The notes beneath the pieces are model-generated. The model was not told the DNA's origin. It worked only from the letters and a program-made list of their open reading frames with translations, and did no database searches. Shown here piece by piece: positions 6,616 to 33,400 of a stretch of 37,144 nt of DNA. The stretch lies in contig JAKPTZ010000096.1 in the NCBI GenBank assembly GCA_029555025.1, positions 1 through 37,144 on the forward strand, written 5' to 3'. Position numbers and translations under genes: made by a program. Source of the stretch: Deltaproteobacteria bacterium (GTDB lineage Bacteria; Myxococcota_A; UBA9042; DTJE01). Every line of letters begins with the position of its first letter. Position 1 is the stretch's first letter.

Positions 6616-6683
6616 TATTAACTGATATGCCGCACCTTGTGCGGCGGGGACGCGGGTTGCGCCGCCGTTCCGGGAGGTTCGTT

Positions 6684-8237
6684 ATGGTTGGGATACTTCT
6701 GGCTGCCATTGGAGGCATTGTCGGCGGCGGCGCGATCGCTTTCCTTGCGACACGCGCTACCGTCAAGTCGAGGCTTGAAAAGGAGAAGGAAAACCTGGAT
6801 GCCGCCATCCAGGAGAGTTCGGTCAAGTGGGAGGCAAAGGTTCAGCAGGCTCTGTCGCAGGCAAGAAATGCAGATATCCGTGTCAAGGCGCTTGAAAAGG
6901 AACTGAACAAGGTCAAGAGCGATGCCGACCGCAAGGAAGAGCGGCTGGCCAAGCGCGAGGAAACCGTTGATCGTAAGATGGACACGCTGGTTCAGCGGGA
7001 AAGCGAAATCGTTTCCCGCGAAAAGGAAACCGTTCAGCGGGAATCCGATGTGAAGGCCCGGATGGCCGAGGCCGAAAAGATGACCGCCGAGGCAAGGACC
7101 GTCCTGGAATCGGTCGCCGGCCTGAGCCAGGAAGAGGCCAGGGCGATGCTGACGGAACGCCTGATGGAAGACGTCAAGCTCTCGGCCGCGAAAAGCATCA
7201 AGATAATCGAGGAAGAGGCCAAGGAAGAGGCCGAGAAGCGCGCAAAGAAGATTGTCGGCGTGGCCATGATGCGGTACGCCGCCGAGTTCGCCAATGAAAG
7301 GACCGTTTCCGTCGTCCAACTCCCGAGCGAGGAGATGAAGGGGCGCATCATCGGGCGCGAAGGTCGGAACATACGTGCTTTCGAACAGGCGACCGGCATC
7401 GACGTGATTATCGACGATTCACCGGATACCGTTATCGTTTCCGGTTTCAATCCCGTTCGCCGCGAGATCGCAAGGCTCGCGCTGGAAAAACTGGTTCAGG
7501 ACGGCCGGATTCATCCCGCAAGGATCGAGGAACTGGTCGAGAAGACGGCCCGCGAGGTCGATCAGAACATCAAGGAAACCGGTGAGGACGCGCTGTACCA
7601 ACTCAGCCTGGGCACGATGCACCCGGAGCTTGTCAAGCTGATCGGTCGCATGAAGTACCGCACCAGTTATGGCCAGAACGTCCTTCAGCACAGCCTTGAA
7701 GTTGGCGGGCTTTCCGGACTGATGGCTGCCGAGATGGGCGTTCCGGTCAAGATGGCCCGCCGCGCCGGGTTGCTGCATGACATCGGGAAGGCGATTGACC
7801 ATGAGGTCGAGGGACCGCACGCGCTGGTCGGCGCCAATTTTGCCCGCAAGTTCGGTGAAAACGCCGAGATCGTTCATGCCATAGCGTCGCACCACAACGA
7901 GGAAAAGCCCCTTACGTTGCTGGCCCACATCACGGCCGCCGCCGACGCGGTGTCGGGTTCACGCCCCGGTGCCCGCCGCGAAAGTCTGGAAAATTACCTG
8001 AAGCGCCTTGGCGACCTGGAAGAAATTTCGAACTCGTTCGCCGGCGTGAACAGGTCTTATGCCATCCAGGCCGGCCGCGAGGTTCGCGTCATCGTTGAAA
8101 ACGAAAGGATCGACGATGACGGCGCCACCATCCTTGCCCGCGACATCGCCCGCAAGATCGAGGAGCAGCTTTCCTACCCGGGCCAGGTCAAAGTCTGCGT
8201 GATCCGGGAAACCCGCGCCGTCGATTTCGCGAAGTAA
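6684..8237 (+). CDS. rny: Ribonuclease Y
   Basis: Membrane-anchored endoribonuclease that starts mRNA decay. The 517-residue product has an N-terminal membrane anchor (residues 2-22), a long charged coiled coil to about residue 200, a KH RNA-binding domain (GRIIGREGRNIRAFEQATG), and the HD catalytic domain with H365-D366 in LLHDIGKAIDHE. ATG 6684 is chosen over the in-frame ATG at 6627 because GGGAGG sits six bases upstream and the protein then begins directly with the anchor, as in the family. It ends facing ybeY, with a repeat-bearing gap between them. YbeY, itself linked to RNA processing, is on the opposite strand. Confidence 0.95.
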   Translation: MVGILLAAIGGIVGGGAIAFLATRATVKSRLEKEKENLDAAIQESSVKWEAKVQQALSQARNADIRVKALEKELNKVKSDADRKEERLAKREETVDRKMDTLVQRESEIVSREKETVQRESDVKARMAEAEKMTAEARTVLESVAGLSQEEARAMLTERLMEDVKLSAAKSIKIIEEEAKEEAEKRAKKIVGVAMMRYAAEFANERTVSVVQLPSEEMKGRIIGREGRNIRAFEQATGIDVIIDDSPDTVIVSGFNPVRREIARLALEKLVQDGRIHPARIEELVEKTAREVDQNIKETGEDALYQLSLGTMHPELVKLIGRMKYRTSYGQNVLQHSLEVGGLSGLMAAEMGVPVKMARRAGLLHDIGKAIDHEVEGPHALVGANFARKFGENAEIVHAIASHHNEEKPLTLLAHITAAADAVSGSRPGARRESLENYLKRLGDLEEISNSFAGVNRSYAIQAGREVRVIVENERIDDDGATILARDIARKIEEQLSYPGQVKVCVIRETRAVDFAK

Positions 8238-8248
8238 TCTGTTGCGCA

Positions 8249-8292
8249 GGGCGGAGGTAATCCCCGCGTACGGGCGAATGAAAATTCGCCCG
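8249..8292 (+). repeat. Dispersed hairpin repeat, copy 1
   Basis: A 44-nt unit whose 3' half is GGGCGAATGAAAATTCGCCC (8272-8291). It is a perfect 8-bp stem, 9 bp with the flanking C/G, closed by a GAAA loop of the GNRA type. It lies between the convergent rny and ybeY genes. Copy 2 repeats the whole unit 80 bp downstream with two differences. Further copies lie at 14507 and 36905-36999. Confidence 0.85.
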
Positions 8293-8328: not shown

Positions 8329-8376
8329 GGGCGGATGTAATCCCCGCGTACGGGCGAATGAAAATCCGCCCGTACG
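8329..8376 (+). repeat. Dispersed hairpin repeat, copy 2
   Basis: Direct repeat of copy 1 (42 of 44 bases). Here the stem extends outward through CGTAC / GTACG to 13 bp (8347-8359 with 8364-8376), with one A-C mismatch and the same GAAA loop. A further half-copy (TTTCGCCCGGGC) follows near 8392. No U-tract follows, so this is not a standard intrinsic terminator. Confidence 0.85.
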
Positions 8377-8415: not shown

Positions 8416-8886
8416 CTATGAAATCTCTGCCATGACCGCGGCGAAGACCTGTTCCTGTCTTTCGAACATGATTCGCTCGTCTTCCGGTCCGGTCTCGTGG
8501 TCGAACCCGATCAGGTGAAGCAGGCTGTGAATGAAAAGGAAGACGACCTCGGAAAAGAAGGGATCCGTCCCGGCCGCCGCGTCCTTGACGTGAATCGGTC
8601 CCTGAGCAGCCGCCTGTTCCAGGGAAATGACGATTTCACCAAGCGGCGCCCTGACTTCGGGCGGCATCGGCACGTCAGGCGCGAATGGGAACGAGAGGCA
8701 GTCGGTCGGGCCGGACTTGCCGCGCCATTGTGCGTTCAGTTCGGCAATCACGGCATTCGACACGAACGTGACTTCGACGTCATCGTCCGCATGGCCGGCA
8801 ATGCGCAAGGCCGTTTCAAACGCGACGTCGAAGCAGCCACGGACGATTTTGACTTTCCTCTGGTTGTTATAGACGTGAACCGCCAT
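8416..8886 (-). CDS. ybeY: Endoribonuclease/rRNA maturation factor YbeY
   Basis: Single-domain metal-dependent protein needed for 16S rRNA 3'-end maturation and ribosome quality control. The 156-residue product has the diagnostic zinc motif HSLLHLIGFDH and, earlier, the ELNAQWRGKSGPTDCLSFPF block. The start chosen (ATG ending at 8886) has GGGGGAG just upstream. The frame is open to 8937, but that would overlap phoH much further. As chosen, it overlaps the 3' end of phoH by 20 bp, so the two are translationally coupled. The phoH-ybeY pair is very widely conserved. Confidence 0.94.
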   Translation of the reverse strand: MAVHVYNNQRKVKIVRGCFDVAFETALRIAGHADDDVEVTFVSNAVIAELNAQWRGKSGPTDCLSFPFAPDVPMPPEVRAPLGEIVISLEQAAAQGPIHVKDAAAGTDPFFSEVVFLFIHSLLHLIGFDHETGPEDERIMFERQEQVFAAVMAEIS

Positions 8887-9862
8887 CGGCTCCCCCTTTG
8901 TCGAGTCCATCCCACGCCCGGATGATTCGGCGGACAAGCGGATGGCGCATCACATCGGCGTCGGTAAACCTGGAAATTGCAATCCCCGGCACGTCGGCAA
9001 GGACATTGACCGCGTACTCCAGGCCGGACGGGACGCCGGCCGGCAGATCCGTCTGCGTGAGGTCGCCGGTTACAACGGCGCGCGACCCGCAGCCCAGGCG
9101 GGTCAGGAACATCTTCATCTGGTCGGCGGTACAGTTCTGGGCCTCGTCCAGGATGATGAAAGCGTTTGAAAGAGTGCGGCCCCTCATGAATGCCAGGGGC
9201 GCGATTTCGATGACGCCCTTGTCGATAAGGCGCTGGCCGCGGTCATTGTCCATTATGTCGTAAAGTGCGTCGTACAGCGGCCGCAGGTACGGATTCACCT
9301 TTTCCGCCAGGTCGCCGGGAAGGAAGCCAAGGCGTTCCCCGGCCTCGACCGCGGGACGCGTCAGGACGATTGATTTGACCTTGTGGGATTGAAGGAAGCC
9401 AAGCGCCGTCGCCATTGCCAGGTAAGTCTTCCCGGTACCGGCCGGCCCGACCGAAATCACCAGATCGTTGTCCCGCATCGCCCGGATGTAGCCTTTCTGG
9501 GCTGGCGTGCGTGGGCGAACCGGCGACGGGACGCCGCCGATTGATACGCCGGACGCGAAGACGTCGGCAAGGTCGGCGGCCGGGTCGGCCTCGAGCACGG
9601 CCACCGCACGGTCGATATCGACAGGGGTAACGTCATGCGAAGCCTGGCAAAGCGTGTAAAGCTGCTTGAGGATGCCCTGGGCGACCTTGACGACGTCCGG
9701 CTGGCCGTAAAGGCTGACCTGGTTTCCCCGGATGCGGACGACCACGCCAAGCAGGGCTTCCAGGCGGCGGACATTTTCGTCACCCTGGCCGCAAAGCGAC
9801 ATGAAGGCGTTGATATCGGAAAATTCGATATCGACCTGGATCGATTGATTACTTTGTATCAT
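8867..9862 (-). CDS. phoH: PhoH-family ATPase (PhoL-like)
   Basis: Cytoplasmic P-loop ATPase of 331 residues. It has an N-terminal KH-like region with GDENVRRLEALLGVVVRIRG, Walker A GPAGTGKTYLA, a VLTRPAVEAGERLGFLPGDL block, Walker B FIILDEAQN, and a sensor GDLTQTDLP. This is the PhoL/YbeZ type that is paired with YbeY and thought to act in rRNA and ribosome metabolism. The start at 9862 (MIQSNQSIQ) is preferred because it begins at the conserved region and overlaps the upstream DUF4388 gene by only 14 bp; a longer start at 9889 is possible. The whole four-gene set on this strand overlaps head to tail. Confidence 0.93.
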   Translation of the reverse strand: MIQSNQSIQVDIEFSDINAFMSLCGQGDENVRRLEALLGVVVRIRGNQVSLYGQPDVVKVAQGILKQLYTLCQASHDVTPVDIDRAVAVLEADPAADLADVFASGVSIGGVPSPVRPRTPAQKGYIRAMRDNDLVISVGPAGTGKTYLAMATALGFLQSHKVKSIVLTRPAVEAGERLGFLPGDLAEKVNPYLRPLYDALYDIMDNDRGQRLIDKGVIEIAPLAFMRGRTLSNAFIILDEAQNCTADQMKMFLTRLGCGSRAVVTGDLTQTDLPAGVPSGLEYAVNVLADVPGIAISRFTDADVMRHPLVRRIIRAWDGLDKGGADGGSRL

Positions 9863-11180
9863 CGGACGGTTCCGCTCCCATCCCGGCATCGGCCGGCTCC
9901 GGGGCCTTTGCCGTTTCCGGGGCGCTGTTTTGTGCCGGGGCTTCCCGGTCCTGCAACTCACGAATGATCAGAAGTTTCCGAACCCGTTCCTTTTCTGCCT
10001 GCTCTTCAGCGGCGGCCTGAAGGATCTGTTCGGCGACAACCGCGTCGTTATCGTCGATCAGTCCATCGTTAAGCAACTTATCAACCGTGATGTCGTTCTT
10101 TGATGTCAGCAGATGGTAAGACAGGATGGCGCCGGACACCCGATCCCGAATCGAATCCATGATGGTCGAGCCGTAGGCGGCGGTTCTCAACCCGTAACGG
10201 GTGCTGACGTGCGGAAGCCGTTCCGGGGAAATCCGGGTTCCGACCAGGAACCCAAGCCCGGTCAACACCAGCACCAGGCTCAGGGCGCGAACCAGATTCC
10301 AGAACGTGTGATTTGTTCCGGAACGATCGGGGGGATCCACGGTCGCCACGACGTACCCGGTATCGATAAGGGCGGCAAGTGCGCGCATGACGGAAAAGCG
10401 CGATTGGCCGCTTGCGGTCTGAAGGTCGTCGATGGTTCGATGTCCATCGACAAAGAAATAAATCTGCTTTTCCGCCGAACCGAGGTCGAGATCCTCCCAA
10501 AGGTATTCTTCCGGGTTTGAATCGAGTTGGGACGTTCTGACAAAACCAACCGAATCGTCCGGAAAATGAGCCATGATTCCCGGTAGTTCCGCTGCGCGCC
10601 GGGACACTTCCTTCAGCAGGAAGGGAATCGGCAGGTGGCAGTTCCTTCGAAGACCGGCCGGAAGGTACTTGAAAAAAGTGAATTCCAGGTCGCGTTCGCC
10701 CATCACCTTCAGAAGGATTTCCGTCAGGGTGGCCTCGAGCAGGTTTGCCGCGGTTGTCATGGAAATGCGGTTGGCCTTTACCAGTTCGACCTCGATGGAC
10801 GTATTGTTGTGATCGGCCTTGCGGACGGCGGCCTTGAAGTGCTTCATGCTGACAAGGCCGTTGTCCAGGAGCAGTTCGGGAATCGTGTCCTGGGTAAGAT
10901 CCTGGTGGGCCACGCTGACCACTCGTCCCTTTTCCACCGTTGCCGAAAGAACGTCCTTGCCATCACGCCTTGCGGTAAGAACCCCCGTCAGGTTCCTGCG
11001 GTAGATGACGGCCAGAGCCGCGAACAGCGGCGGATATTTCTGCCTTCCGGCCGGTCCGGTTTCAAACGGATTGAAGGCGCGCGTCTTTGACGAGTCATCG
11101 TCGTACCCGTCCGACTGGTCGTCATGCATTTCGACGTCCAGGCGAATCGGGGACATCGCTATTTCAAGATCGTCGCTCAT
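9849..11180 (-). CDS. DUF4388-type membrane protein
   Basis: A 443-residue protein. Residues 50-115 (PPLFAALAVIYRRNLTGVLT..VLSATVEKGRVVSVAH..) follow the DUF4388/PATAN pattern, a domain linked to signalling and regulatory proteins in deltaproteobacteria, with helical material continuing to about 215. Residues 240-280 (FVDGHRTIDDL..SRFSVMRALAALIDTGYV) look like the small winged-helix unit often found with DUF4388. A single hydrophobic segment follows at about 296-315, then a charged helical tail and a Pro/Ala/Glu-rich end. With one TM and no signal peptide, the DUF4388 part would be cytoplasmic. It starts in an ATGA overlap with the stop of the 686-residue TPR membrane protein and overlaps phoH at its end, so expression is tied to both. 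Its biochemical role is unknown. Confidence 0.75.
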   Translation of the reverse strand: MSDDLEIAMSPIRLDVEMHDDQSDGYDDDSSKTRAFNPFETGPAGRQKYPPLFAALAVIYRRNLTGVLTARRDGKDVLSATVEKGRVVSVAHQDLTQDTIPELLLDNGLVSMKHFKAAVRKADHNNTSIEVELVKANRISMTTAANLLEATLTEILLKVMGERDLEFTFFKYLPAGLRRNCHLPIPFLLKEVSRRAAELPGIMAHFPDDSVGFVRTSQLDSNPEEYLWEDLDLGSAEKQIYFFVDGHRTIDDLQTASGQSRFSVMRALAALIDTGYVVATVDPPDRSGTNHTFWNLVRALSLVLVLTGLGFLVGTRISPERLPHVSTRYGLRTAAYGSTIMDSIRDRVSGAILSYHLLTSKNDITVDKLLNDGLIDDNDAVVAEQILQAAAEEQAEKERVRKLLIIRELQDREAPAQNSAPETAKAPEPADAGMGAEPSDDTK

Positions 11181-13237
11181 CTTTTCCTTGTGATGATTAC
11201 GTCAATCACCGACCACAGGTAAGCCGAGACCAGCAGGATCGGCGGCAGCAGTGGAAGGCCACGGGCCTGCTGCGGAATATATGCGAAACTGTCGATGATC
11301 GGCGCGCTTGGCGTTATCACCATCATCGCGCCAAGGCCAAGCAGAAGCATCATCGTAAGCCCTCGGAACGGGCGGCCGCCGAGTATCTGCCCAGAGCCGG
11401 GAACCGCGATTGACATCGCGGGCAGCCAGTACCTGGCGGCAAGACCGCGATGCTGGAAGGCGGACATGGCCGCGACGTCCTTGGGATCCAGGAATGCCGG
11501 CCGAACCTGGTCGAAAAGGCATATCGGGCAATGCTCGAACCCGGAAGCCCGCCTGTTGCAGGAAGGACAGATGACGTGGCCGCAGGCCGGGCAACGAACC
11601 GCCCGTCGCCGTCTTGGATTGACGAAGACAAGCGCGACGCCCACGGCAAGCATTACCGCGAGGATTAACGGAATCATCTGCGGGCTGACGGCCCCCAGAA
11701 GAACCGACTTGAACGGGAGCAGCGGCGGCGTCCGGGTCAGAAGCTCGAAATTGGAAAGCCCGTCAAAGTAAATTTCGTGATTGGACGATGGCCGCGGAGG
11801 GCGAAGCTCGCCCGCCAGTTCCACCAGGTGATCGCATGCGTCGCTGGACGCCGTCAGCGTCCTGACCTGGGCCATGAAATCAAGATCGGATTCCTTCGTA
11901 ATCTCAAGGACGCGCTGCAGGCTGAGTTCCATGCCCTTGCGATCGCCGGCCAGACCGGACGCAACTGCCATTCCACGATTCGCGGCCTCGTTGTCGGGGG
12001 AAGCCGTGAGCGCCCGGCTGTACCAGCCCATCGCCGAGGCCATTACTGCCGTGTCGTGCCGCCCGGCAGGGCATTTGTGAAGTCCGTCAAGAACAATGAC
12101 GTTGCCCATAAGAACCTGGCCCAGCGGAGATTCAAGGCTGTCCTTGCGGGCTTCCATGAAACTTCGGATGGCTGGTATCTGATCCGGCTGCCCAATCGCG
12201 AACTGGAGCCTGCCCAGCGCGACAGCAACGATGGTCGATTCGTGTCGTGCCCGGTCGCCGACGCCAGTGGCGCCAACCCCGTCGTCCAGAAGAAGTTCAA
12301 GAGCCTGTCGGGACTCCTGCGGGCAGTATTCGGTGATGCACGACCAGCGCAGCGTGCCGGCGGTACCGTTCACATGCCCGGGAAGCGCGGTCAGCGAGCC
12401 TGTGGTCGGCAGGGCCGCCGCCACGACGGTCATGACAACGATCATGATGCGCTCGGAAAGACGTCCGTATGGAAACACCAGCAGCATCCAGAGCGCGGCG
12501 GTCAGAAGCAATCCAGCCCCAAGGACGAACGGGGCGAAACAGATGACCAGGAGCAGCAGTGTCAGCAGGCCGTTCGACAGGCCCCGACTGAAGCTCTGCA
12601 GGGGCCCCCTTGATTTTCGAATTTCGGCTGCGGTGAAGTGGGTTGTTTCAGCGTTCGGGAGGATGTCGCCAATGTCGTGGCGGATCATGGGGAAGTATCG
12701 AATCAGGAAGCCGAGACCCAGGATGATGTATAGAATCAGCAGGACGCCGATCAGATAGAAACTGGACTCGGCCGCCAGAATGGAAGCGCTGCGCGGGAAA
12801 CGCAGCATTCGTTCGAAACCGTCCATGGCGATTGTGGCCGCCGGGCCGATGTTCTGAATTCCCTGGAAAAGGCGAACCTTGGCCAGCTTGAAATAGACGG
12901 CAGGATAGTCGGGAGCAAGTTCAATCGCGGTCTCGAGAAGCTGTCTTCGCTTCTTCGGGGTCGATTCGGTGGTGCCGGGATCAAAATAGCCGATGAAGGC
13001 AGCCGCAACCGGCGACAGATTGGCAATGTTGTATTGTTTGCGCAGGGTTATGAGCTGTTTCAGAGCGACTTCGGCCGTATCGATCCGGCCGGCACGGAGG
13101 TTGGTCAGTAGTACCCCGGCCTGCTTGTCGATTTCGGGCGGGGGCAGCGGAATTTCCGTGTAGGCAGCTGCCCCCGGCGATAACGCCGAAAAGATAACTG
13201 CGGCCAAGACGGGTATTAGTATGCGTCCCGTGTTCAT
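11177..13237 (-). CDS. Multi-pass membrane protein with TPR-like regions and a zinc ribbon
   Basis: A 686-residue protein of no family I know. Residues 1-25 are a signal peptide (ending PGAAAY). TPR-like helices occupy about 35-150 (LLETAIELAPDYPAVYFKLA). Hydrophobic segments lie at about 158-180, 222-256 and 264-280. A second TPR-like region follows at about 330-460 (WYSRALTASPDNEAANRGMA), then a membrane segment at 521-539. A cytoplasmic-looking zinc ribbon carries CPAC, CPSC and CPIC pairs (C549/C552, C557/C560, C570/C573). The VPGSGQILGGRPFRGL stretch near 612 resembles the PGxGQ motif of TM2-like membrane proteins, and hydrophobic segments follow near 628-642 and 664-682. No Shine-Dalgarno precedes the ATG; a promoter sits seven bases upstream. 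It is the first gene of the overlapping set with DUF4388, phoH and ybeY. Confidence 0.8.
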   Translation of the reverse strand: MNTGRILIPVLAAVIFSALSPGAAAYTEIPLPPPEIDKQAGVLLTNLRAGRIDTAEVALKQLITLRKQYNIANLSPVAAAFIGYFDPGTTESTPKKRRQLLETAIELAPDYPAVYFKLAKVRLFQGIQNIGPAATIAMDGFERMLRFPRSASILAAESSFYLIGVLLILYIILGLGFLIRYFPMIRHDIGDILPNAETTHFTAAEIRKSRGPLQSFSRGLSNGLLTLLLLVICFAPFVLGAGLLLTAALWMLLVFPYGRLSERIMIVVMTVVAAALPTTGSLTALPGHVNGTAGTLRWSCITEYCPQESRQALELLLDDGVGATGVGDRARHESTIVAVALGRLQFAIGQPDQIPAIRSFMEARKDSLESPLGQVLMGNVIVLDGLHKCPAGRHDTAVMASAMGWYSRALTASPDNEAANRGMAVASGLAGDRKGMELSLQRVLEITKESDLDFMAQVRTLTASSDACDHLVELAGELRPPRPSSNHEIYFDGLSNFELLTRTPPLLPFKSVLLGAVSPQMIPLILAVMLAVGVALVFVNPRRRRAVRCPACGHVICPSCNRRASGFEHCPICLFDQVRPAFLDPKDVAAMSAFQHRGLAARYWLPAMSIAVPGSGQILGGRPFRGLTMMLLLGLGAMMVITPSAPIIDSFAYIPQQARGLPLLPPILLVSAYLWSVIDVIITRKR

Positions 13238-13321: not shown

Positions 13322-13423
13322 CTACTTTCCGCGCTTGCGGCGTTCGTGGCGCATCTTCTTGCGCATCTTTTCGTACTTGTGCTTCCGCATCTTCTTACGC
13401 CGCTTCTTGATCACGCTGCCCAT
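13322..13423 (-). CDS. AURKAIP1/COX24 domain protein (33 residues)
   Basis: A very short gene found by reading the minus strand. It reads MGSVIKKRRKKMRKHKYEKM and continues RKKMRHERRKRGK before TAG. This is the bacterial AURKAIP1/COX24 (DUF1713) pattern: an almost all-basic helix beginning MGSVIKKRRK.M and ending in RRK.GK. The mitochondrial relative mS38 is a small-subunit ribosomal protein, so a ribosome-associated role is likely here, but that is inference. GAGG lies eight bases before the ATG, and a TTGACA promoter stands upstream. It is 84 bp ahead of the operon that ends with ybeY, a ribosome maturation gene, which may not be a coincidence. Confidence 0.85.
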   Translation of the reverse strand: MGSVIKKRRKKMRKHKYEKMRKKMRHERRKRGK

Positions 13424-17137: not shown

Positions 17138-20100
17138 ATGGCTCAGAAGTGTCCAATCTGCAAATGCATGGTTCCAACAGACGGCTTCATGCCAGGTGAA
17201 ACGGTCACTTGTCCGGACTGCGGAACCGGTATCGTCGTGGATCCGCAACTCCCCGGGGCGGCGGCGCGAGGCAAGGCAATCCAGGATGCCGAACCTCAGG
17301 CATCCGGAAAGGGGCGATCGGCCTACGGCTCGGCCAAGGCTCAGGTGAATTCGGCGGTTGGTTCATACTCCTTTAAGTTTGGCGACAAAAAGGCGCCGGC
17401 TGAACGCGTTTTCGATCCGAAAGCCGGTTCATCATCCAGGGCGACACCGCCACGGCCGGAGGCTGCTCCGAGTGCTGGTCGTCAGGCGGCTGTCCGGCCC
17501 GAGCAGCCTAAACCGGATCCGAAGGCGGCCGCGGCAGCCGACTTTTTCTCCCGACCGGCCGAAGGTGGCTGGAACCCCTTCCAGGGGGCGCCGAAGGCCG
17601 CACCGGTCGAGAAGAAGCAATCCGTTGACCCTGACATGACCATCGGTTTCGGCGACGGTGCTGATTTTGAATTCAAGCGACCGGACGATTCCAGGCGGCC
17701 GGACAACGATACCGTCAAGCAGGCTCCGGTCGATTCCTTCAATTTCTTCGACCCGCAGCCGCAGGCATCCCAGTCTGCCCAGCCAGCGCCCCGGCAGGAT
17801 TCGGGTGATCTTGGTTTTGATCTGGATGCCGTTCTCGGTTCCGACGTCGCCTCTGGAATCGGCGCGCCGTCGCAGGCCGATCCGTTCGGCTGGGGCGGCG
17901 ACATCCAGCACGGCAACCCGCCCGGCGTTCCTCAGGAGGACGTGTGGACAACGGCCGAGACGGTTCCACTTTCGGTTGATCACCTTGGCCGGAACGACTT
18001 TGGCGGAACCGGGGATTTCGGCGATGCGGCCGATTTCGACGAGAGCGTGAGTTCACAGCTTGACGGCGGTCAGGACGGAATCGACCCGAATCAACTCCTT
18101 TCCGATGATTTCGATTTGAAAGGCGGCCTGATGGCCGACCTGATTTACGACGTGCCTCCGGACGAAGCAGCCCCCCTGAAGGCGCTTGCGGTCGATGCGC
18201 CGGGGAAGGGCTCCAAGGCACGGGCCCGTGCCGGTCGTTCCCAGCGCAAGACGACGGCGACCCCACAGCGCCGGCGGCTTGGCCGAATCCTGATTATCCC
18301 CCTGGTGGTCGTGCTCATTGGTGCCATCCTCGGGCTGACCGACTACGGCTATTTCGGCATCAACCTGCTGTCAGGCGGGGCCAAGCCAAGTAACTCGTAT
18401 TACAAGACGATCAAGTCCGACATCGTCGTCGTCAACGATTCAAGGGAAGCCTTCATTGAAAGGATTGCAACGCTCGAACGTTTGTATCGCGATGACGACT
18501 CGGACGACAACCTGGTCGAACTGGTTCTGACCATGAACCGGTACAAGGAGCGCTATCCCTCCGCGTTTTCAAGTGACTCACGGATGACGGCCAGGCTGGA
18601 TCAACTCAAGCAGCTCGCGGCCGGCAAGGATGCCCGAACCGGCAACATGACAAAGGTCATGGATCTTGTGGGGCAGGGCAAGTACACCGAAGCCAGGGCC
18701 ATGCTCGACAGCATGGTGGCGTCGTCCGCCCAGGATGTTGATGTCCTTTACTACTACGGCAAGATTGCGCTGGCGACGGACAAGCCCGACGAGGCGCAGA
18801 AGTACTTCGAACTGGCCCTGATCAAGAATCCCGGCCTGATTTCCGCAAAGTACTTTCTTGCCCAGGCATTCTGGAACCAGAAGAAGACCGTCGAGGCGAA
18901 GGCGCTTCTGTCGGAAATCATGGCCAAGGAGGCCACGCACCTTCCCAGTCGCATCCTTTCGGCGACTATCGCCCTGGACGAGTCCAGCGTCGATGAAGCG
19001 GCAAATCTTGCTCAGCACGTCATCGCCGCCGGCACGCCAGGCTCCGATACCGAGGAGATTTTCCAGGCACATCGAATCATGGCCCGCGTCCATCTTCTTG
19101 GCGGGAAGCCGGCCGAGCGCCTGGCATCGCTGCGGGCCGCACTGCTGCTCAAGCCCGCGCACGAGGAGACCGCCGTCGAGGCCGGCGAAATTCTCCTGCG
19201 AACCGGAAAACGCGGCGAGGCGCTTGACGCGCTTACCCCATGTCGTGAACACGGATGTGTTTCCCTGGCATTTCTCCTGGTGTTTGCCCAGGCGGCCTAT
19301 GCCGACGACAAGGTCGATGTCGCGCGGGCGGCAATAGCCCAGGGCGAACAACGTTATCCCGAGTCGCCTCGCTTTGGCGTCATCGAAGGCAGCTACCATC
19401 TTCGCGAGAGGCGGTTCCGGTCGGCCGAGGACGCGCTCGAGAAGTCCATCAAGCTGGATCCTAAGCATGTCGAGGCATACCTTCTGATTTCCGATGCCTT
19501 CATGGAGGAAGGCATGGCCGACAACGCCGCCTCCTATCTTGAAAAGGGGCTGGCGCAGATTGGTCCGGAGGCGCGGCTTCTTATCAAGCTGGCCGATATC
19601 AGGATTGCCCGCAAGGAATTGCCTGAAGCCGAAGCCGCGCTGCGCCAGGCGGTGCAGATTGACCAGAACAGTGACTCGGCGCAGTTGAAGCTGGGAATGG
19701 TCGTAAAGGATCAGGGGCGTAACGACGAGGCCGCTTCCATCCTGAACGTCCTGGAAAAGCGCCGCGCGCTTGATTTCAATGGCAGCGTCGCGCTGGCTGA
19801 AGCTTATCTGGAAATGAAGAATTTCGAGCGTGCCCGCGACATCCTTCAGCAACTCTACTCCGCCAATCCCGACAGTCCCGAGGCCGGTAACGCCTTCGGT
19901 CGGGCACTTGGGGAAGGGCGCGAATATCAGAAGGCCATCGAGGTGTTGTCCAGGGTCGAAACCCGCTTTCCGAATAATTCAAGGGCCCCGTACCTTCTTG
20001 GAAACGTCCTGATGGCCCAGGGCAAGTTCCAGGACGCGATAAACAGCTTTGAAAAGGCCATCAAGCTGGATTTCTCGAGGCATGAATACCGGCTGGCGGC

Positions 20101-20680
20101 CTCGGCGGCCTACATCGCGCTGGGTAGCGTCGATTCCGACGTGGAAGCCCGCAAGCACCTGGATCTGATTATCACCGATTACCAGTCCGGGAAGATCGCC
20201 CCGGAGGATCAGAATCCCGAAGCGTACCTGATGCGCGGGCGGATACTCTTTTCCCGCCAGAAGTACGGCCAGGCCATGAAGGATTTCGAGGCGGCTCTTT
20301 CCCTGGCTCCATCGCGTCGCGACATCATGGTTGAGTTCGGGCGATCGCTGTTCGAGATGCAGCGGTATGACGATGCGACGGCATACTTCAAGCAGGTTCT
20401 CGCCAGCGACTCGCTGAATCCGGTCGCCAACTACTTCATGGGCAGGATCCATCTTCGCGACGGGGATACTGAAACGGCACAGAAGTTCCTTACCAACGCG
20501 GTCAAGCGCAATCCCGGGATGTTCGCGGACGCGCACAAGCTGCTTGGATTCATCTACAAGGACAAGGGACTGCGCTCGCTGGCACGGGACAGTTTCAAGG
20601 CTTTCCTGAAACACACGAAGGATCGCCAGGCCGCCGACGCGAAGGAAATCACCAGGATCCTGGAAAAGGGCTCGTACTAG
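17138..20680 (+). CDS. Zinc-ribbon, single-TM, TPR-repeat protein (1180 residues)
   Basis: The protein begins with a small zinc ribbon (C5, C8, C25, C28 in CPIC..CPDC). A linker of about 350 residues rich in Pro, Ala, Gly, Gln and Asp follows. A basic stretch and one hydrophobic segment lie at about 380-400 (LIIPLVVVLIGAILGL). From about residue 520 to the end come tandem TPRs, for example KPDEAQKYFELALIKNPGLI and QDAINSFEKAIKLDFSRHEY. The expected topology is ribbon and linker in the cytoplasm with the TPR array outside it. GGAGG lies six bases before the ATG. A possible -10 TATCAT (17111-17116) has only a weak -35. The CxxC-linker-TM layout resembles deltaproteobacterial proteins that begin with an MJ0042-type zinc finger, but I cannot name a function. 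It ends 31 bp from the convergent dnaE stop. Confidence 0.85.
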   Translation: MAQKCPICKCMVPTDGFMPGETVTCPDCGTGIVVDPQLPGAAARGKAIQDAEPQASGKGRSAYGSAKAQVNSAVGSYSFKFGDKKAPAERVFDPKAGSSSRATPPRPEAAPSAGRQAAVRPEQPKPDPKAAAAADFFSRPAEGGWNPFQGAPKAAPVEKKQSVDPDMTIGFGDGADFEFKRPDDSRRPDNDTVKQAPVDSFNFFDPQPQASQSAQPAPRQDSGDLGFDLDAVLGSDVASGIGAPSQADPFGWGGDIQHGNPPGVPQEDVWTTAETVPLSVDHLGRNDFGGTGDFGDAADFDESVSSQLDGGQDGIDPNQLLSDDFDLKGGLMADLIYDVPPDEAAPLKALAVDAPGKGSKARARAGRSQRKTTATPQRRRLGRILIIPLVVVLIGAILGLTDYGYFGINLLSGGAKPSNSYYKTIKSDIVVVNDSREAFIERIATLERLYRDDDSDDNLVELVLTMNRYKERYPSAFSSDSRMTARLDQLKQLAAGKDARTGNMTKVMDLVGQGKYTEARAMLDSMVASSAQDVDVLYYYGKIALATDKPDEAQKYFELALIKNPGLISAKYFLAQAFWNQKKTVEAKALLSEIMAKEATHLPSRILSATIALDESSVDEAANLAQHVIAAGTPGSDTEEIFQAHRIMARVHLLGGKPAERLASLRAALLLKPAHEETAVEAGEILLRTGKRGEALDALTPCREHGCVSLAFLLVFAQAAYADDKVDVARAAIAQGEQRYPESPRFGVIEGSYHLRERRFRSAEDALEKSIKLDPKHVEAYLLISDAFMEEGMADNAASYLEKGLAQIGPEARLLIKLADIRIARKELPEAEAALRQAVQIDQNSDSAQLKLGMVVKDQGRNDEAASILNVLEKRRALDFNGSVALAEAYLEMKNFERARDILQQLYSANPDSPEAGNAFGRALGEGREYQKAIEVLSRVETRFPNNSRAPYLLGNVLMAQGKFQDAINSFEKAIKLDFSRHEYRLAASAAYIALGSVDSDVEARKHLDLIITDYQSGKIAPEDQNPEAYLMRGRILFSRQKYGQAMKDFEAALSLAPSRRDIMVEFGRSLFEMQRYDDATAYFKQVLASDSLNPVANYFMGRIHLRDGDTETAQKFLTNAVKRNPGMFADAHKLLGFIYKDKGLRSLARDSFKAFLKHTKDRQAADAKEITRILEKGSY

Positions 20681-24444: not shown

Positions 24445-27400
24445 ATGAGCACATCCAGCCTGGACAAGATGTTCGAGATCATATTTTCCGACACTCCGGA
24501 TTTTTCGGTTGCTCGGGAATGCGGCGCCGACATGAGCGGTGCCGAACTTATTGAAACACTTTCGCTTATTCGCGAAAAGGCGCTCGAGGCGTCGGGGCCG
24601 GAAATGGTTCATTCGCTGGCCGCCGTCGTCGCGAACCTGCTGCTTGGGGCGGCGTTGGACAATCCGTTCGATGCCGAGGCCGACAAGACCGCAAGGAACT
24701 CCGTTTCACGGATTGCCGGTGCGGCGGCCGATCTTTTCGACCAGGACGTCGGTGATCAGTCCCTGGCGCAGGTGGCAAGGCTTGCCGAAGCGATTCTCAG
24801 TCTGAATCCGGCTGCGCTGGCGGACGTGTACGACCTTTTCGGCCAGGGGCTTGATGAGGATGTGAAGATACGGCTGCTTCGTCTTCTGGCCGGCTGCGGC
24901 GACGCGGACTACAACCGTCGTTATGGGCCGACGCTTGGCGAAGCCCTTGCGGCGCGTCGTGCCCGGATGGCGGCCGAAGCGACTCCCGCGGATGGAGTCG
25001 AGCAGGTTATGCAGGAGGATGTATTTCCGGAGGATGTCGGGATTTCGGAAGATGCCGGGATTTCCGAGGATGCCGGGATTTCACCGGAAAAGAACGTCGA
25101 TGCCGGCGACGATTCCAGTCCTGATCTGGACGACCCCGCTCAGCGCCAGCAGACGCTTCAGTTTGAACCGGAGGATCGGGAAGCCGACGGCATCGCTTCC
25201 AGCGAGCCCGCGGAGGATGCGGACAGTGGCGACGCCGGTTCCTCGGATGCTGACGTTTCCGTCCCGGCCGACCTTGCCGGTCTTGAGGCCGGTCTGAACA
25301 GGGCCCCGAAGGATCGCGATCTTCGCGGGGCCTACATCCGTTTGGCGATTGAACAGGAAGTGGCCGAACGCGCAGTCAAGTTCATTTCGCGCATCGCGGC
25401 CGGTCTTCATGATGCCGACAAGGCTGCCGCCCTTGTCGATCTTGCCGCGCTGCATCTCATGGGTGGCGGTACGGAAGCCGCGATGACGGCGCTCGAGGCC
25501 GCGCTGGAGGCCGACAGAACCAGTCGCGAGGCTCTGGACCGTTATGTGGCCATTGCTGAAGAAGGGGGGCTGTCCGAGCGCGGGGCCGCCTTTCTGGAAA
25601 CCGTTCGACGAGCGTTGACCGGGACTCCTTCGGAAATCCCTCTCCTGACCAGTCTCGGGCGCCTGCTCGGGCTGTCGGGTCGCGACGACGACGCCGAGAA
25701 ACTGTGGCGTCGTCTGCGCGCCCTGGATCCGCGCAACATCGAGGCGCTGGAATTCTACATCGGCTATTACGGTCGCAAGTCGGATTGGCAGAAGCAGTTT
25801 GCGACCGCGCAATTTGAATTGTCGGTCGTTGACAGCGACCGTGATCGGATTCGCTTGAACCTGCTGATGGCGGATGTCGCCGAAAATCGACTTAACAATC
25901 TGGATCGCGCGGCCGAGGCTCACAAGCGGATTCTCTTGCTGGCTCCCGAGAATCTCGATTCCTTCGAGGCGCTGGTGTGTCTGTATGAGAAGTCCAGGAA
26001 ATGGCACCAGCTTGTCGAGATGTATAACGACCGTATTCGGCGGCTTCCGGCAGAGGACGTTGATCAGAAGGTCGCCTTGCTGTTTCGGATTGTCGAGGTC
26101 TATCAGAACCCGGAAAAGCAGCCGGGCCAGGAAAACATGCTGGCGGCTTACAGCCGTATCGCCGACATTTCCCCAACCAATGTCCAGGCGCTGGATACGC
26201 TCGATCGCGGTTACCAGACGTCCGAGCGGTGGCCGGATCTGTTGAAGGTTCTCGAAAAGAAGATTGAGCTGACCGAGGATCCGGTCGAACTTCTTGAACT
26301 GTTCAATCGTGTCGCCGAAATCGTTATCAACAGGATGTCGAACGAGACCCAGGCGATACCTTTCCTGGAAAAGATCCTGGAACTCGACCCCGAGAACCTG
26401 GATGTCGTCCTGAAGCTTAAGAGCATTTACAGTCATAAGCACAACCAGGAAAAGCACTATGCGATGCTGAAGAGGGAAATCGCGATGGTTCAGGGCGCCG
26501 AGCGGGAAAGGATCCTGCTTTCGGCGGCCGAGATGGCGCGCGACAAGCTGCTTCTTTTCGATGAAGCGCTTGAGTTGTACAGCGAGGCATACCGGCAGAA
26601 CGGGACCCTTCGGGAGGCGCGCGAAAACATGCACGCGCTGTTCGACCGGATGGAGCGATGGGCCGATTACGCCGTTTTCCTGGATTCGGAAGTCGAGTGC
26701 GAGATGCCTGACCGGCGTCGGATTGAGCTTCTGCACAAGCTGGCCGAAATCCGCGCGACGCACCTTGGCGATCCTGTCGGCGCGGAAACTGTTTTCCAGA
26801 AGATCCTTTCGATTGATCCCAGCGACGACCTTGCGACCGACCGCCTGGAGGCGATGCTTCTTCAGCAGGGGCGCTTCCAGGAAATCTACGACGTTTATCG
26901 GAAGATGGACGACGTCAGGAAGTTCGTTGCCCAGATTACTTCATTCGACGCGCAGAAGGGGGTGAATCCCGGGTTCCGCAAGGAGATGTGCCTGATACTG
27001 GCCCGGGCCTGCGAAGTCGACCTGAAGGAGCCCGAGCGTGCGCTGGAGTTCATGGAGCAGGCTTTCCAGGCCGATCCGGCGGACGATTCCGTCGGCCGCA
27101 AGGTTCTTTCCACCGCGATGAAGAAGAAGGACTTCAAGCGCGCCGAGCGCGTCTTGAAGATTCTGACGGCCACCGCATCGGAACCGGCGGCGCGGCAGGA
27201 AGATTTCGTTAAACTTTCGAAGCTTTATCGCGATACCGAAAGGCCTTCCGATGCATTCGACGCGCTTGCGGACGGCATCAGGGCGGATCTGGACTCGGAC
27301 GGGCTTCAGAAACTGGTCGCGGAAGCCATCGATTCGGGAACCGCTGGCGAATTGTGGCAGCCGCTCGCCACGCTGCTTTCGGACGTCGTCACAGCCCCTT

Positions 27401-30400
27401 CCGATGATAAGTGGCGTCAGCAGATCCTGATGGTTCTGGGCCGCATCCAGGCCGAGCGCCTTCTTTTTCACGAGGACGCCAGGACAACTTTTGAAAAGGT
27501 TCTTGCCATTGATCCCGGTGCGCTGGAGGCCCTGGATGTTCTTGAATCCATAGCGATGCAGCAGCAGGACTTCACGGCTCTTGAAGGCGTCCTTATCCGG
27601 CGCATCGATGCCTTGAAGCTCGATTCCGACAGGCAGGCTGTTCTTGTCAGGCTTGGCGCCCTTTACGAAGACCTGATCGGTGATGACGAAAAGGCCGCCG
27701 CCGCCTTCGCAAGGGCGGCGGAACTGGCTGCTGAGCCGGACAGGGCCGTGCTGGCCGGGCTTCATCGTACCTACGACAGGCTCGAGAGGTTCCCGGAACT
27801 TGCCGACGTCATCAGGAAGGAAAGGCTGCTGGCGCCCCAGGACTGGGAGCGGATCGCCCTGGATATCGAACTCGCGGCCGTGCTTGCCGACGGGCTCGGG
27901 CAGTTCGACGATGCCCTGGCCGTCCTTGACGGCATTCTCTGCGACGCCGACAACGACAAGGCGTTGGCGCTGGTCAGGCGGATTTTTGACGATGGGTCGG
28001 ATACCGACACCGCTGGAAGCATCCTTCGAACCGTCTATGCAAGAACCGGGGATTCCGCCGGTCTGCTCGGCGTGATCGAGACGATGATCGAGAGAGCCGG
28101 CCGTAACGATGCAAAGGCGGCCCTGCTTGTTCAGGCGGCCGGAATCCTTTCGGCTGACCTCGGGGATCCGTCCGGCGCCTTCGAGCGTCTTGCTTCATCG
28201 ATCAGGCTGTTCCCGACCGAGGAGAATGTCTCGCTGGCCCTGGGCCTTGCACAGGAAGTCGATGGATTCAGGCTGCTGGCCGATGCCATCCAGTCCGTCG
28301 TTGATCCCGATGTGGCGGCCGCGGAAGACCTTCCTGAACTGGATCCCGAAATCCAGGCGCTTCTTTTTGGGACGCTCGGAAACCTTTACGGCAGGAAACT
28401 GGGGCAGCCCGGGAAGGCGGTCATGGCGATGGAACGCGTCATGGCCCTGACCGACGTCGATGAGTCCTTCCTGGCCGAGATGTTGACGCTTTACCGCGCG
28501 GTCGATGCTGTCGATTCGGCGCTTTCGGCTTTTGACAGGCTTCAGGCTGCTCAATCGGTCGCCGATGCCAGGAGCACTCTGATTGAAAAGGCGATGTACG
28601 CCGCCGCCAATGGCCGGATCGATACCGCGGTCGCGGCTCTTCGGGACGTGGCGGGTCGCACCTTCGATCCGGAAGCCGACAGCCTTCTGGAGGAAATGCT
28701 TCTTGAACATGGCAGGTACGGCGACCTGATCGAGCTGTTGCAGGCGAGGATCGAACGTCCGGAATATGAGTCAGAGAGGGCCGAGACGGCCTTCAGGATT
28801 GCGGGCGTCTTCAGAACCCATATGAAGATGGCCTCCGAGGCAGCCCGGTTCGTGAGGCAGGCCATAAAGGAGTCCCAGGGCCGCGCCGACATCGTCGCCT
28901 TTGCCGTGGAAATGGTGCTTGATCGATCGATTTCGGATCGCAGGTCTTTCGCGCCGGAACTGGCCGAGACCTTGATAGATACCCTTGAGGCAGGGCAGGG
29001 TGATTCCGGCACCGTCGCGGATCTGCTTCGCCTCCGGGCAGAGTTCTGCAACGATTCAATCCAGCGTGTTGCAATCCTGAACAGATTGGCCGCGCTTCAG
29101 GATTCGACCGGTGACCACGTTGGCCGATTCGACACGCTTTCCCAGGCGCTTGGCAACACGCCAGGTGATGCCGAACTTGCCGAGGCCTTCGTTGCCGCCG
29201 CCGTCAAGGCCGGCGCCGCCGTTCGCGCGGTCGAGCGTCTTGGACGTTTTGCGTCATCCGCATCCGGTTCCGACCGCGTTCGCCTTTTGATGGCCGCCGC
29301 CGCGCTGGCAAAGGATCACGCCGGCGACGAGCCTGGCGCTGTCCAGATTTATCGCGGGCTGCTGACTGAGTTTCCGGATGACGTCCAGGTCATCGAGGCG
29401 CTTGAACAGTTGCTTCAGGCAATGGGAAGCGATGCCGAACGGGTTCCGTTGCTGGAACGCCTGGCCGTCCTGGCGGACGACCTTTCCCGGCGAAGAACGA
29501 TTCGCCTGAAGGCCGCCATTATCGCGGCGTCCTCCAATGATCCCCTGACGGCTTCGGGGTTCCTGAAGTTCGTCGTCGATGCAAGACCGGATGAGGATGC
29601 GCTTGATGCCGAGTCCGAGGATGCGGCCAGGCGCCTTGTCGATGTTTCGATGGAACTGGACGATTTCGACACGGTGGCTGAAATGCACCTGCTTCTTGGT
29701 CGGCTGCTTCCGGATGCCGAGGCGCGCCGGGCCTGCCTGCTGGCCGCCGCCGAAGTCACCCGGGATCGGCTTGGTCATCCGGCCGATGCCCTGACTATCT
29801 TCACCGGTTTGCTGAAGGTTGATGAAAATGATGCCGTGGCAAGGGATGCGGCGCGCGACCTTGCCCGCAAGACCGAAAATGTCCGGGTTCTGATGGACAT
29901 CCTGCGTCACGACGTGGCGACCGCCGTTGATTCGAACGCTCGAAACGCGGCCCTGCTGGAATCCGCCACCGTATCGCTGCGGATCGATGTCAACGATACC
30001 GATGGCGCGATCGAGGCGCTGCGCCTGGTTCTTCTTGATGATCCGTCGAACGCTGCGGCGGTCAGGCTGTGCGAGTCGATCTATGACGACCATGAAGCTG
30101 CCCCGGAGGCCGCGCGTCTGCTGATAGATGCCGCGGAGCGTTCAGGGGACGGCGAACTGCTGGTTCGGACGTTGAGAATCGCGATCGGACAGACCGGCGA
30201 TCCGGTCGAGAGGGCCGCGAAGCTGAAGACCGTCGGGACAACCCTTGTCAAACTGGATCGTAACGCCGAGGCGGTTGAGGCCTTCGCGGACGCCTTCCTT
30301 GAAAGGCCGTCGGAACCGGAAACCCTGCGGGATCTGTTCGATCAGCTTGTCAGGCTGGAAAGACCCGAACTTCTTTCGGAAAGGGTCGATGCGGCGTGTG

Positions 30401-33400
30401 ACCTGATGCCGGACGGCGCGATTGACGACGTAATCGATCTTCGGCTGCGGGCCGCCGCGCTTCTGAACACGATACCGGGCAAGGCCGAGGATGCCTTCGT
30501 GATATTGCGCCGGGCTCTGGCCTTGCGTGAAAGCGACCCGGCCGTTATCCGGGCGATAATCGATCTGACGCAGGAAGCCGGAATGTGGCGGCATTACGTC
30601 GAGATCCAGCGCCTGAACATCGCCTATCTGCTTTCGACGCCGGACGAGAAGGCCGATGCCTGGCTTGAGTGCGGCGCGATTTACGCCGATGCCGACCGTC
30701 TTGACGATCAGGATCTGGCCGCCGAGTGCTACCGCGAAGTCCTTGCCATCAGGCCGCTGGACAGGGCGGCTCTGGACGTCCTGGCCCGAATCCTTGGCGC
30801 GGCCGGCGACACCGAGGGGCTTCGGATTCTGTGGCAGTGCGAGCTTGCCGCGTGGGAAGGGCTTTCCCCGGAGAAGCGGGACGAGGGGCGCATGACCAGG
30901 CTGCGGATCAGCGTGGCCGAAGGCGCGCTGGCGTCGGGCGGCGGATCCGACGCGGTTTCGGCGGCGATGGCAATCATCGAGTCAAAGGCCGCGGATGCCC
31001 ATTCGCTTGACGTTGCGGTCAAGATTTATCGGGAAACCCTGGATCTTGAACTGTTCAACCAGCTCACCGCATTGCTTTCCGAACGCAACGAGCATCGCCG
31101 CCTGCTGGATCTTTACCGCTTCGTCTATTCCAGAAAGGATGTTCCGCCGGGGCCGGAAGCCTGCCTGCGGAAGTCGATTGAGCTTGACGAGAAACTGCGG
31201 CTTCACGATTTCAGGTTCGAGGATCTCGGCCGTCTGGTCGAACTGGTGCCGACCGATGCGGCGAACATGGCGACCTATGTCGAGGTGGGACGGAAACTTG
31301 GGCGGATGGTCAAGGTGGCGGCACTGCTTGAAAAGACGCTGGCCGCCTTCCAGGATCGTGAAGTTGCTTTCGAAGTTGCGATGCAACTTGCTGAAATTTA
31401 TGAAGTTGACCTGAAGAAGCCGGAAGACGCCACAAATTACCTTCGGCTTGCTTTCCTTCGGCGGCCGGAAGATCGCCTGGTGGTTGAAAGGCTTGCCGCG
31501 GCTTACATCGGGCTTGGTCAGTTCGGCGATCTGGCGCTGCTTTACGAAAACCTTGGTGACTTGACCGTTGACGCGTCCGAGCGCATCGAGCATTACTTCA
31601 AGGCGGCCGAGGTCCAGCGCGAAAAGGTTGCAAGTCCCGATGGCGCCATCGAAATCCTGAAGAAAATCATGGATATCGATCCGTCGAACATGGCGGCAAT
31701 CGATGCGCTCGAGCAGGTCTCCCGTCAGACCGGCAACTATCCTGAACTGGCGGTCTGGCTGCAGCATCGGGCCGACGTGACAACGGATTCCGGGGCAAGG
31801 CGAACCCTGTTGCTGGAACTCGCGGATCTTTATTCCACAAGGTTGGGGCGTCCCGGTGATGCAGCCTCGGTGCTTGAGAGTCTCCAGGAAGCGCTTCCCC
31901 AGGATCTGGAAGTCTGGGCGCGGCTGGAAAAGACTCTTGTGTCTCTTGGAACCTTCGACAGGCTGGCCGACATGTACATGCGGCTGGCGGGCGTCGTCGA
32001 GGCCGATGAGCATCGTCTTGCCGCGTTGAAGAAGGCGGCCTCGGTGTTCGAGGCACGCCTGGATGATCGCTTCCAGGCCGTTCATGCCTTGCAGGAGATC
32101 CTGAAGATCGACCCGCGGGACAGCTTCGCGTGCGTCCGTCTTGGCGAGATGCTCGAAGCCGATGAGGACTGGCCGGCACTTGCAAGACACCTGGCCGGGT
32201 GCTGCAACGCATCCGAGGACGCCCAGGCGCGGGCCGGACTGGCCCTGCGGGTCGCCGACCTTTACATGTCCAGGCTTGATCGCCAGGCCGACGCCATCGC
32301 GTACTTCAAGATGGCGCTGGACTTCGATCCGAAGATTGCCGAGGCCCGCGAGGGGCTTATGTCGCTTGTCGGCGAGGGCGAGTGCTCCGTCGATGCGGCG
32401 GTGATTCTGGAAGAGGTCTTTTCAAGAACCGGGGAAAGCGCGAGTCTGCTGGAAGTCCTCAGGCGCCAGCTTGGAACCGTGCATACCGGGAGCGAGCGGG
32501 CGGCAATTCTGATGCGGATGGCCGAGGTTCAGGCAGCCCTGCCTGGAATGGCCGGCGAAGCCGCCGCGCTTGTCGGTCAGGCGCTTGCCGAGGCACCTGG
32601 AAAGGTCGATGTGCTTGCCAGGCTGCAGGCGATGGCGGAAGGCGCGGGGCTCTGGCAGCAGGCTTACGACCTGGTCGCGGCTGCCCTGGCGAACGCGGCC
32701 GACGACGAGGCGCTGGCCCGGCTGCACCGGTTCGCTGGAACGGTGGCCGGTGGGAAGCTGGATGACTTCGAGCGGGCCGCGGCGCATTTGGAGACGTTCC
32801 TGGCGCTTCAGGATGTGGACGCGGAAGTCCTTGAAATGCTGGACATGATCTACGGTCGTCTTGGGCGCCGTGCCGACCAGGCAGATATTTTGAGGCAGCG
32901 TATATCGCTTGCGGGAGACGATGTTGATTCGGCTCTGCAGCTTCGGCTGGCCGCGGCGTTGATGGACGATTCCAGGGACGTTGATACTGCTTTTGATATT
33001 GCCCGCAGGGTTCTGAAGCGCGAGCCATCGAACCAGGATGCGCTGAAGTTCATGACGGACATCACCAGCGATCCTATCGTCGGGCGCAGGGCGATGGACG
33101 TGCTTCGTCGGGCATTCCGGGAGTCTCGTAACGATTCCGAGCTGTTGCGCGCAGTTGAAAATCAGATTCTGAATTCACACGAATCAGCGGAACTCATCGA
33201 GCTTCATTGCGAGGCCGCCGGGGCGGCCGGCTCCCTGGGCAACAGCGAATTGCAGCTTGTGCATCTTGGCGCGGCACTGGCCCTGGATCCGTCCAGCGAC
33301 AAGGTGCTTGCCGACGTGCTCGAGACGGCCGGAAGGAATGGAAACGGCAAGCTGGCGTGGGCCATATTGAAGCGTGCGGCCCAGGCCGCATCATGGCCTG

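Follow-up and report, generated by a model that had tools for sequence, protein, structure and literature searches.

The window, that is, the whole stretch of 37,144 nucleotides analyzed here, contains four genes that are all located on the minus strand in the order p686-p443-phoH-ybeY. The first gene of the operon, p686 (11177-13237), encodes a protein that is predicted to be polytopic in the inner membrane, to contain two TPR solenoids and to carry a putative cytoplasmic zinc ribbon, and it is followed by p443 (9849-11180), whose product is a predicted single-pass membrane protein with a PATAN/DUF4388 domain, a winged helix, a transmembrane (TM) helix and a periplasmic tail. The third gene (8867-9862) codes for a P-loop ATPase of the PhoH (YbeZ) type, as indicated by its profile match (PF02562, 9e-89, 296.8 bits, above cut-off) and by its Walker A (GPAGTGKT) and Walker B (IILDEA) motifs. 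The last one (8416-8886) codes for YbeY, the 16S rRNA 3'-end endoribonuclease, which scored 98.1 bits with its model (TIGR00043/PF02130; cut-off, 45) and carries the HxxxHxxxxxH metal motif as HSLLHLIGFDH. An earlier note on this DNA had described an overlapping four-gene operon at 8867-13237; the overlaps of 4, 14 and 20 bp at the three junctions were all confirmed, and that range includes p686, p443 and phoH but stops within ybeY, which reaches 8416. The p686/p443 overlap consists of the tetranucleotide ATGA, the 14-bp overlap between p443 and phoH assumes that phoH starts at the ATG at 9862 (a longer version from a GTG at 9961 is possible), and the internal starts of the operon are preceded by Shine-Dalgarno-like stretches. 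The host genome, a 3.49-Mb draft from an uncultured myxobacterium, has one copy of ybeY.

The operon of the window terminates with ybeY, without lnt, and a convergent rny gene lies beyond it. This gene (6627-8237, plus strand), which encodes the membrane-anchored RNase Y, is separated from ybeY by 178 bp and is also close to ybeY in families f5 and f30. Two copies (8262-8280 and 8342-8360) of a hairpin-rich repeat, CCCCGCGTACGGGCGAATG, whose exact 19-mer has no other occurrence in the host genome, are located between rny and ybeY and possibly form a two-way terminator. At the other end, 84 bp upstream of p686, there is an unlisted 33-amino acid gene, MGSVIKKRRKKMRKHKYEKMRKKMRHERRKRGK (13322-13423, minus strand), whose product is a ribosomal protein of the bS22/AURKAIP1 type (COX24_C, 1.9e-8). 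This gene adjoins lipA and is near-identical across the window's family; it was rejected as a member of the operon because it travels with lipA, its distance from p686 in sister genera being 1-5 kb.

The p686 protein of the window did not exceed any family cut-off in the profile search, and a fold search with its AlphaFold (AF2) model (mean pLDDT, 76) returned TPR solenoids only, with no significant single relative. According to hydropathy and the positive-inside rule, p686 is predicted to consist of a signal-like N terminus, a periplasmic TPR region, a TM cluster, a second periplasmic TPR region, a TM helix, a cytoplasmic zinc ribbon and a C-terminal membrane hairpin, with about seven TM helices in total. 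The first TPR region (residues 34-150; 12788-13138, minus strand as for all domains below), which is preceded by a signal-like helix (residues 6-24), is supported by the helices of the AF2 model, a TPR_11 match (3.6e-5) and topology, and the second one (residues 293-490; 11768-12361), which contains Cys300, Cys305, Cys389 and Cys468, by the model, the fold search and hydropathy. In the window protein itself, the TPR regions proposed in the earlier note do not reach the Pfam cut-off (TPR_11, 23.8 against 26.8 bits required); they are clear in the AF2 model and, at up to 1e-14, in homologues. The cysteines of the predicted periplasmic region are conserved in the window's family but not outside the class. 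The putative zinc ribbon (residues 549-573; 11519-11593) was recognized by CxxC conservation, and the three CxxC pairs noted previously do exist in the window (C549/552, C557/560 and C570/573). However, conservation across families is limited to the first and third pairs, with C549, C552, C570 and C573 invariant across 22 homologues and at least 90% conserved in 36, whereas the middle pair is variable; the core of the motif consists of two CxxC pairs. The C-terminal membrane hairpin (residues 603-682; 11192-11431), assigned by conservation and hydropathy, contains a near-invariant PGxGQ..G.P.RG motif and is DUF6677-like in 6 of 22 homologues.

As to p443, it is predicted to expose to the cytoplasm a PATAN/DUF4388 domain (residues 56-198; 10587-11015; profile and AF2 model) and a winged-helix-like domain (residues 230-286; 10323-10493; weak MarR_2/TrmB similarity), which are followed by a single TM helix and a periplasmic tail (residues 293-443; 9852-10304; hydropathy and comparison with family f19) with the motif RxxxALxxYxxxxGRxPxSLxeLv..L. 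The AF2 model (mean pLDDT, 76) gave weak winged-helix/Nprl2-3 matches in a fold search and no significant single relative. The DUF4388 assignment made previously is above the cut-off in the window protein (PF14332, 26.6 bits against a gathering cut-off of 25), and the profile matches 30 of 34 p443 homologues (best, 4.5e-34), but this domain is not the conserved core of the protein. The p443 of family f19 retains nothing but the TM helix and the periplasmic tail and is still placed between p686 and phoH, which indicates that the membrane/periplasmic part forms the conserved core and rules out PATAN both as the conserved functional core and as the general docking site. Although p443 shares PF14332 with the PATAN proteins PatA, PixE and PixG, it differs from them in being membrane-anchored, in having a periplasmic tail and in lacking a receiver domain.

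The PATAN domain of p443 has a helical insert (residues 99-160) that corresponds to the region of the MshEN motif, defined as RLG...G...L...L..Q repeated twice in a c-di-GMP receptor domain (Wang 2016, PMC5013675). In the p443 homologues of three families, a 53-residue double motif is inserted in PATAN and exceeds the cut-off of the MshEN c-di-GMP model (NF053729, 38 bits), with 55.6 bits in f14, 46.0 and 45.8 bits in f30, and 39.2 bits in f5, so that these proteins score as putative c-di-GMP receptors. In contrast, the motif is absent from the f19 p443 and degenerate in the window and its family; the match decays stepwise among families down to none in the latter, and the window p443 did not match the model and retains at most 4 of the 14 key residues, off-site. 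On the basis of this motif, c-di-GMP binding by the window p443 was rejected.

The linkage of the pair to phoH and ybeY was analyzed by searching 53 relatives with p443 and p686 and 191 phylum genomes with a p686 profile, fetching the DNA around the matches and scoring the neighbours by profiles. A set of 62 p686 loci was found without reference to phoH. In this blind set, p443 immediately followed p686 in each of the 60 loci that a contig end did not interrupt, and phoH and/or ybeY came next in 55 of the 58 loci with a long enough contig (phoH in 53, ybeY only in 2), the exceptions being G007, the second copy of G010, and G019. Families without a match were inspected upstream of phoH, and divergent pairs appeared in f17, f32, f39 and f44. 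With the wider profile, full-length p686 (at least 226 bits for whole matches, genes split over pieces scoring lower per piece) was present in 75 of 191 genomes, and TPR-only partial matches elsewhere did not exceed 63 bits. Four of these 75 genomes were cut by contig ends; phoH was next to p686 in 67 of the 71 resolvable ones, across 18 families, and ybeY alone in another (G005), although the loci from which this profile was made included some picked for their position beside phoH, and the unbiased figure is thus 55 of 58. By coordinates, phoH lies downstream of p686 on the same strand and within 3.2 kb in 62 genomes; a phoH fragment or broken phoH is next in G011, G052, G140 and G177, and the locus of G107 continues across a contig break. 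The pair is unlinked to phoH-ybeY in G007, G019 and G193, and these three together with the second copy of G010 indicate that it can exist without the adjacency. That copy (L095, 5480-9849) includes p443, and a second p686 was also observed at a contig start in G004 (L086).

Therefore, the p686-p443 pair is linked to phoH/ybeY across much of the Myxococcota, and it is not found mostly away from these genes in relatives (55 of 58 blind loci; 68 of 71 resolvable genomes), in agreement with the undescribed association that the earlier note had put forward. Moreover, a literature search, with subscription journals mostly outside its coverage, found no account of the pair. A within-family alignment search yielded 12 named loci, all from Deltaproteobacteria/Myxococcota-type metagenome-assembled genomes, one of them titled Oligoflexales; nothing was found in a contig scan with a single p686 sequence as query or in a plasmid search. 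The co-occurrence with ybeY was uninformative, since almost every genome has this gene (49 of 53 relatives). The genes lipA and deoC are near p686 only in the window's own family, while rny recurs in f5 and f30. Gene order elsewhere was reshuffled and p686-p443-phoH was retained, so that the cluster is a selectively kept, vertically inherited unit, which many other Myxococcota lack.

At an E value of 1e-60, phoH was undetected in G005 and in seven genomes of family f18 (G057, G077, G080, G084, G108, G123 and G168); most of these genomes are near complete, which points to an apparent repeated loss of phoH. In addition, the phoH gene of G118 and that of G140 are each distributed over two reading frames (L187, 5829-6860; L191, 5794-6901), which may reflect a true break or an assembly error.

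Taken together, these results suggest that RNA-processing enzymes are tied to the membrane in these bacteria and, in some lineages, linked also to c-di-GMP. The reading that we favor, with no more than even confidence, is that p686 and p443 together constitute a single inner-membrane complex, which is produced along with the PhoH-YbeY machine and acts on it. We infer that such a complex would position PhoH-YbeY or regulate it, and that c-di-GMP would feed into this control in some lineages. The core of the complex would arise from pairing between the TPR part of p686 and the p443 periplasmic tail, and the zinc ribbon of p686 and the PATAN domain of p443 would face, and dock or gate, the PhoH ATPase, so that the 16S rRNA 3'-end processing mediated by YbeY would be placed at the membrane and adjusted to the state of the envelope. 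Binding of c-di-GMP to the MshEN insert of p443 would be an added input in some families, the corresponding residues having been lost in the window's lineage. In Pseudomonas aeruginosa, YbeZ binds YbeY and aids 16S rRNA maturation, and the exact role of this ATPase partner, YbeZ/PhoH, has been described as unknown (PMC7327168). The PATAN protein PixE has been hypothesized to bind the pilus ATPase PilB1 (PMC7690835), which provides a precedent for a PATAN domain acting on a P-loop ATPase. The earlier note had proposed a membrane-linked sensor arm attached to rRNA quality control: the membrane arm fits the predicted topology and the operon partners, and that it also serves as a sensor and influences rRNA quality control is our inference. 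Against this reading, four resolvable pairs are not adjacent to phoH-ybeY, and p686 is missing from many Myxococcota that have phoH-ybeY. The true client might be any of several operon partners, i.e. phoH, pgpH, ybeY or lnt. YbeY is a broadly conserved RNase, and a phylum-wide membrane complex of this kind would offer a handle on the location and control of PhoH-YbeY.

The main rival explanation, which we consider possible though not probable, is that p686 and p443 serve the cell envelope, through membrane or lipoprotein homeostasis, and belong to the operon in the way that ybeX and lnt do in Escherichia coli, with no action on RNA processing. The E. coli cluster miaB-ybeZ-ybeY-ybeX-lnt resembles the operons described here in that a phoH-type ybeZ overlaps ybeY, membrane/envelope genes belong to the same operon and lnt is downstream in several Myxococcota families: f17 and f21 have lnt and then prfB after ybeY, and f13 and f37 carry lnt a short distance beyond phoH/ybeY. 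An envelope role shared with lnt is also in agreement with the predicted periplasmic location of the p686 TPR domains and of the retained p443 tail. The operons described here differ from the E. coli cluster in that p686 and p443, which are placed upstream of phoH, do not correspond to CorC, MiaB or Lnt, and in the window ybeY is not followed by ybeX and lnt. Against the envelope reading, the window and its relatives end the operon at ybeY without lnt, the linkage to phoH being the constant feature. The known phoH-pgpH-ybeY arrangement was found in f19, where PgpH (7TM-HD) is encoded between phoH and ybeY; there p686-p443 precede phoH, and the window operon lacks pgpH.

A stronger version of c-di-GMP involvement, in which a membrane-embedded, c-di-GMP-responsive complex of p443 (PATAN-MshEN) and p686 directly controls PhoH-YbeY and some lineages have lost the ligand site or the receptor domain, seems unlikely to us. 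Those lineages would have kept the membrane core, and rRNA maturation would be, if this reading were true, a direct output of the second messenger. The MshEN-bearing p443 proteins make the link between c-di-GMP and rRNA processing directly testable.

It is rather improbable, in our judgment, that the arrangement is an ancient gene order without shared function, kept for coordination of expression, e.g. growth-rate control. The gene overlaps would favor retention, the pair is often lost, and p686 and p443 diverge much more rapidly than PhoH (median identities of 21%, 24% and about 55-56%, respectively). The distance matrices of the four genes agree (r of 0.81-0.89), as expected for the shared vertical inheritance of an old operon, which is no proof of function. 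On the PhoH tree, the pair is clustered but patchy, which fits an old origin and repeated loss; the 10 changes counted are an overestimate, and the tree, in which several pair-bearing families were labelled as lacking the pair, was used only for age and repeated loss. Against a mere relic of gene order, the unit has persisted through 18 families with identities of about 20%, even as the other neighbours changed, and the pair still adjoins ybeY where phoH is missing, as in G005 (f7), where p686-p443 directly abuts ybeY. Finally, a coupling of export to ribosome maturation, in which the TPR regions and cysteines of p686 would sense the translocation or periplasmic folding load, is very improbable; the predicted periplasmic TPR region with conserved cysteines in the window's family speaks for it, but there is no signature of an export partner and those cysteines are not conserved outside the class.

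Elsewhere in the window, an open reading frame of 1180 amino acids (17138-20680, plus strand) matches the p686 profile in its C-terminal part, probably through TPRs only, and another one spans 3612 amino acids (24445-35283, plus strand).
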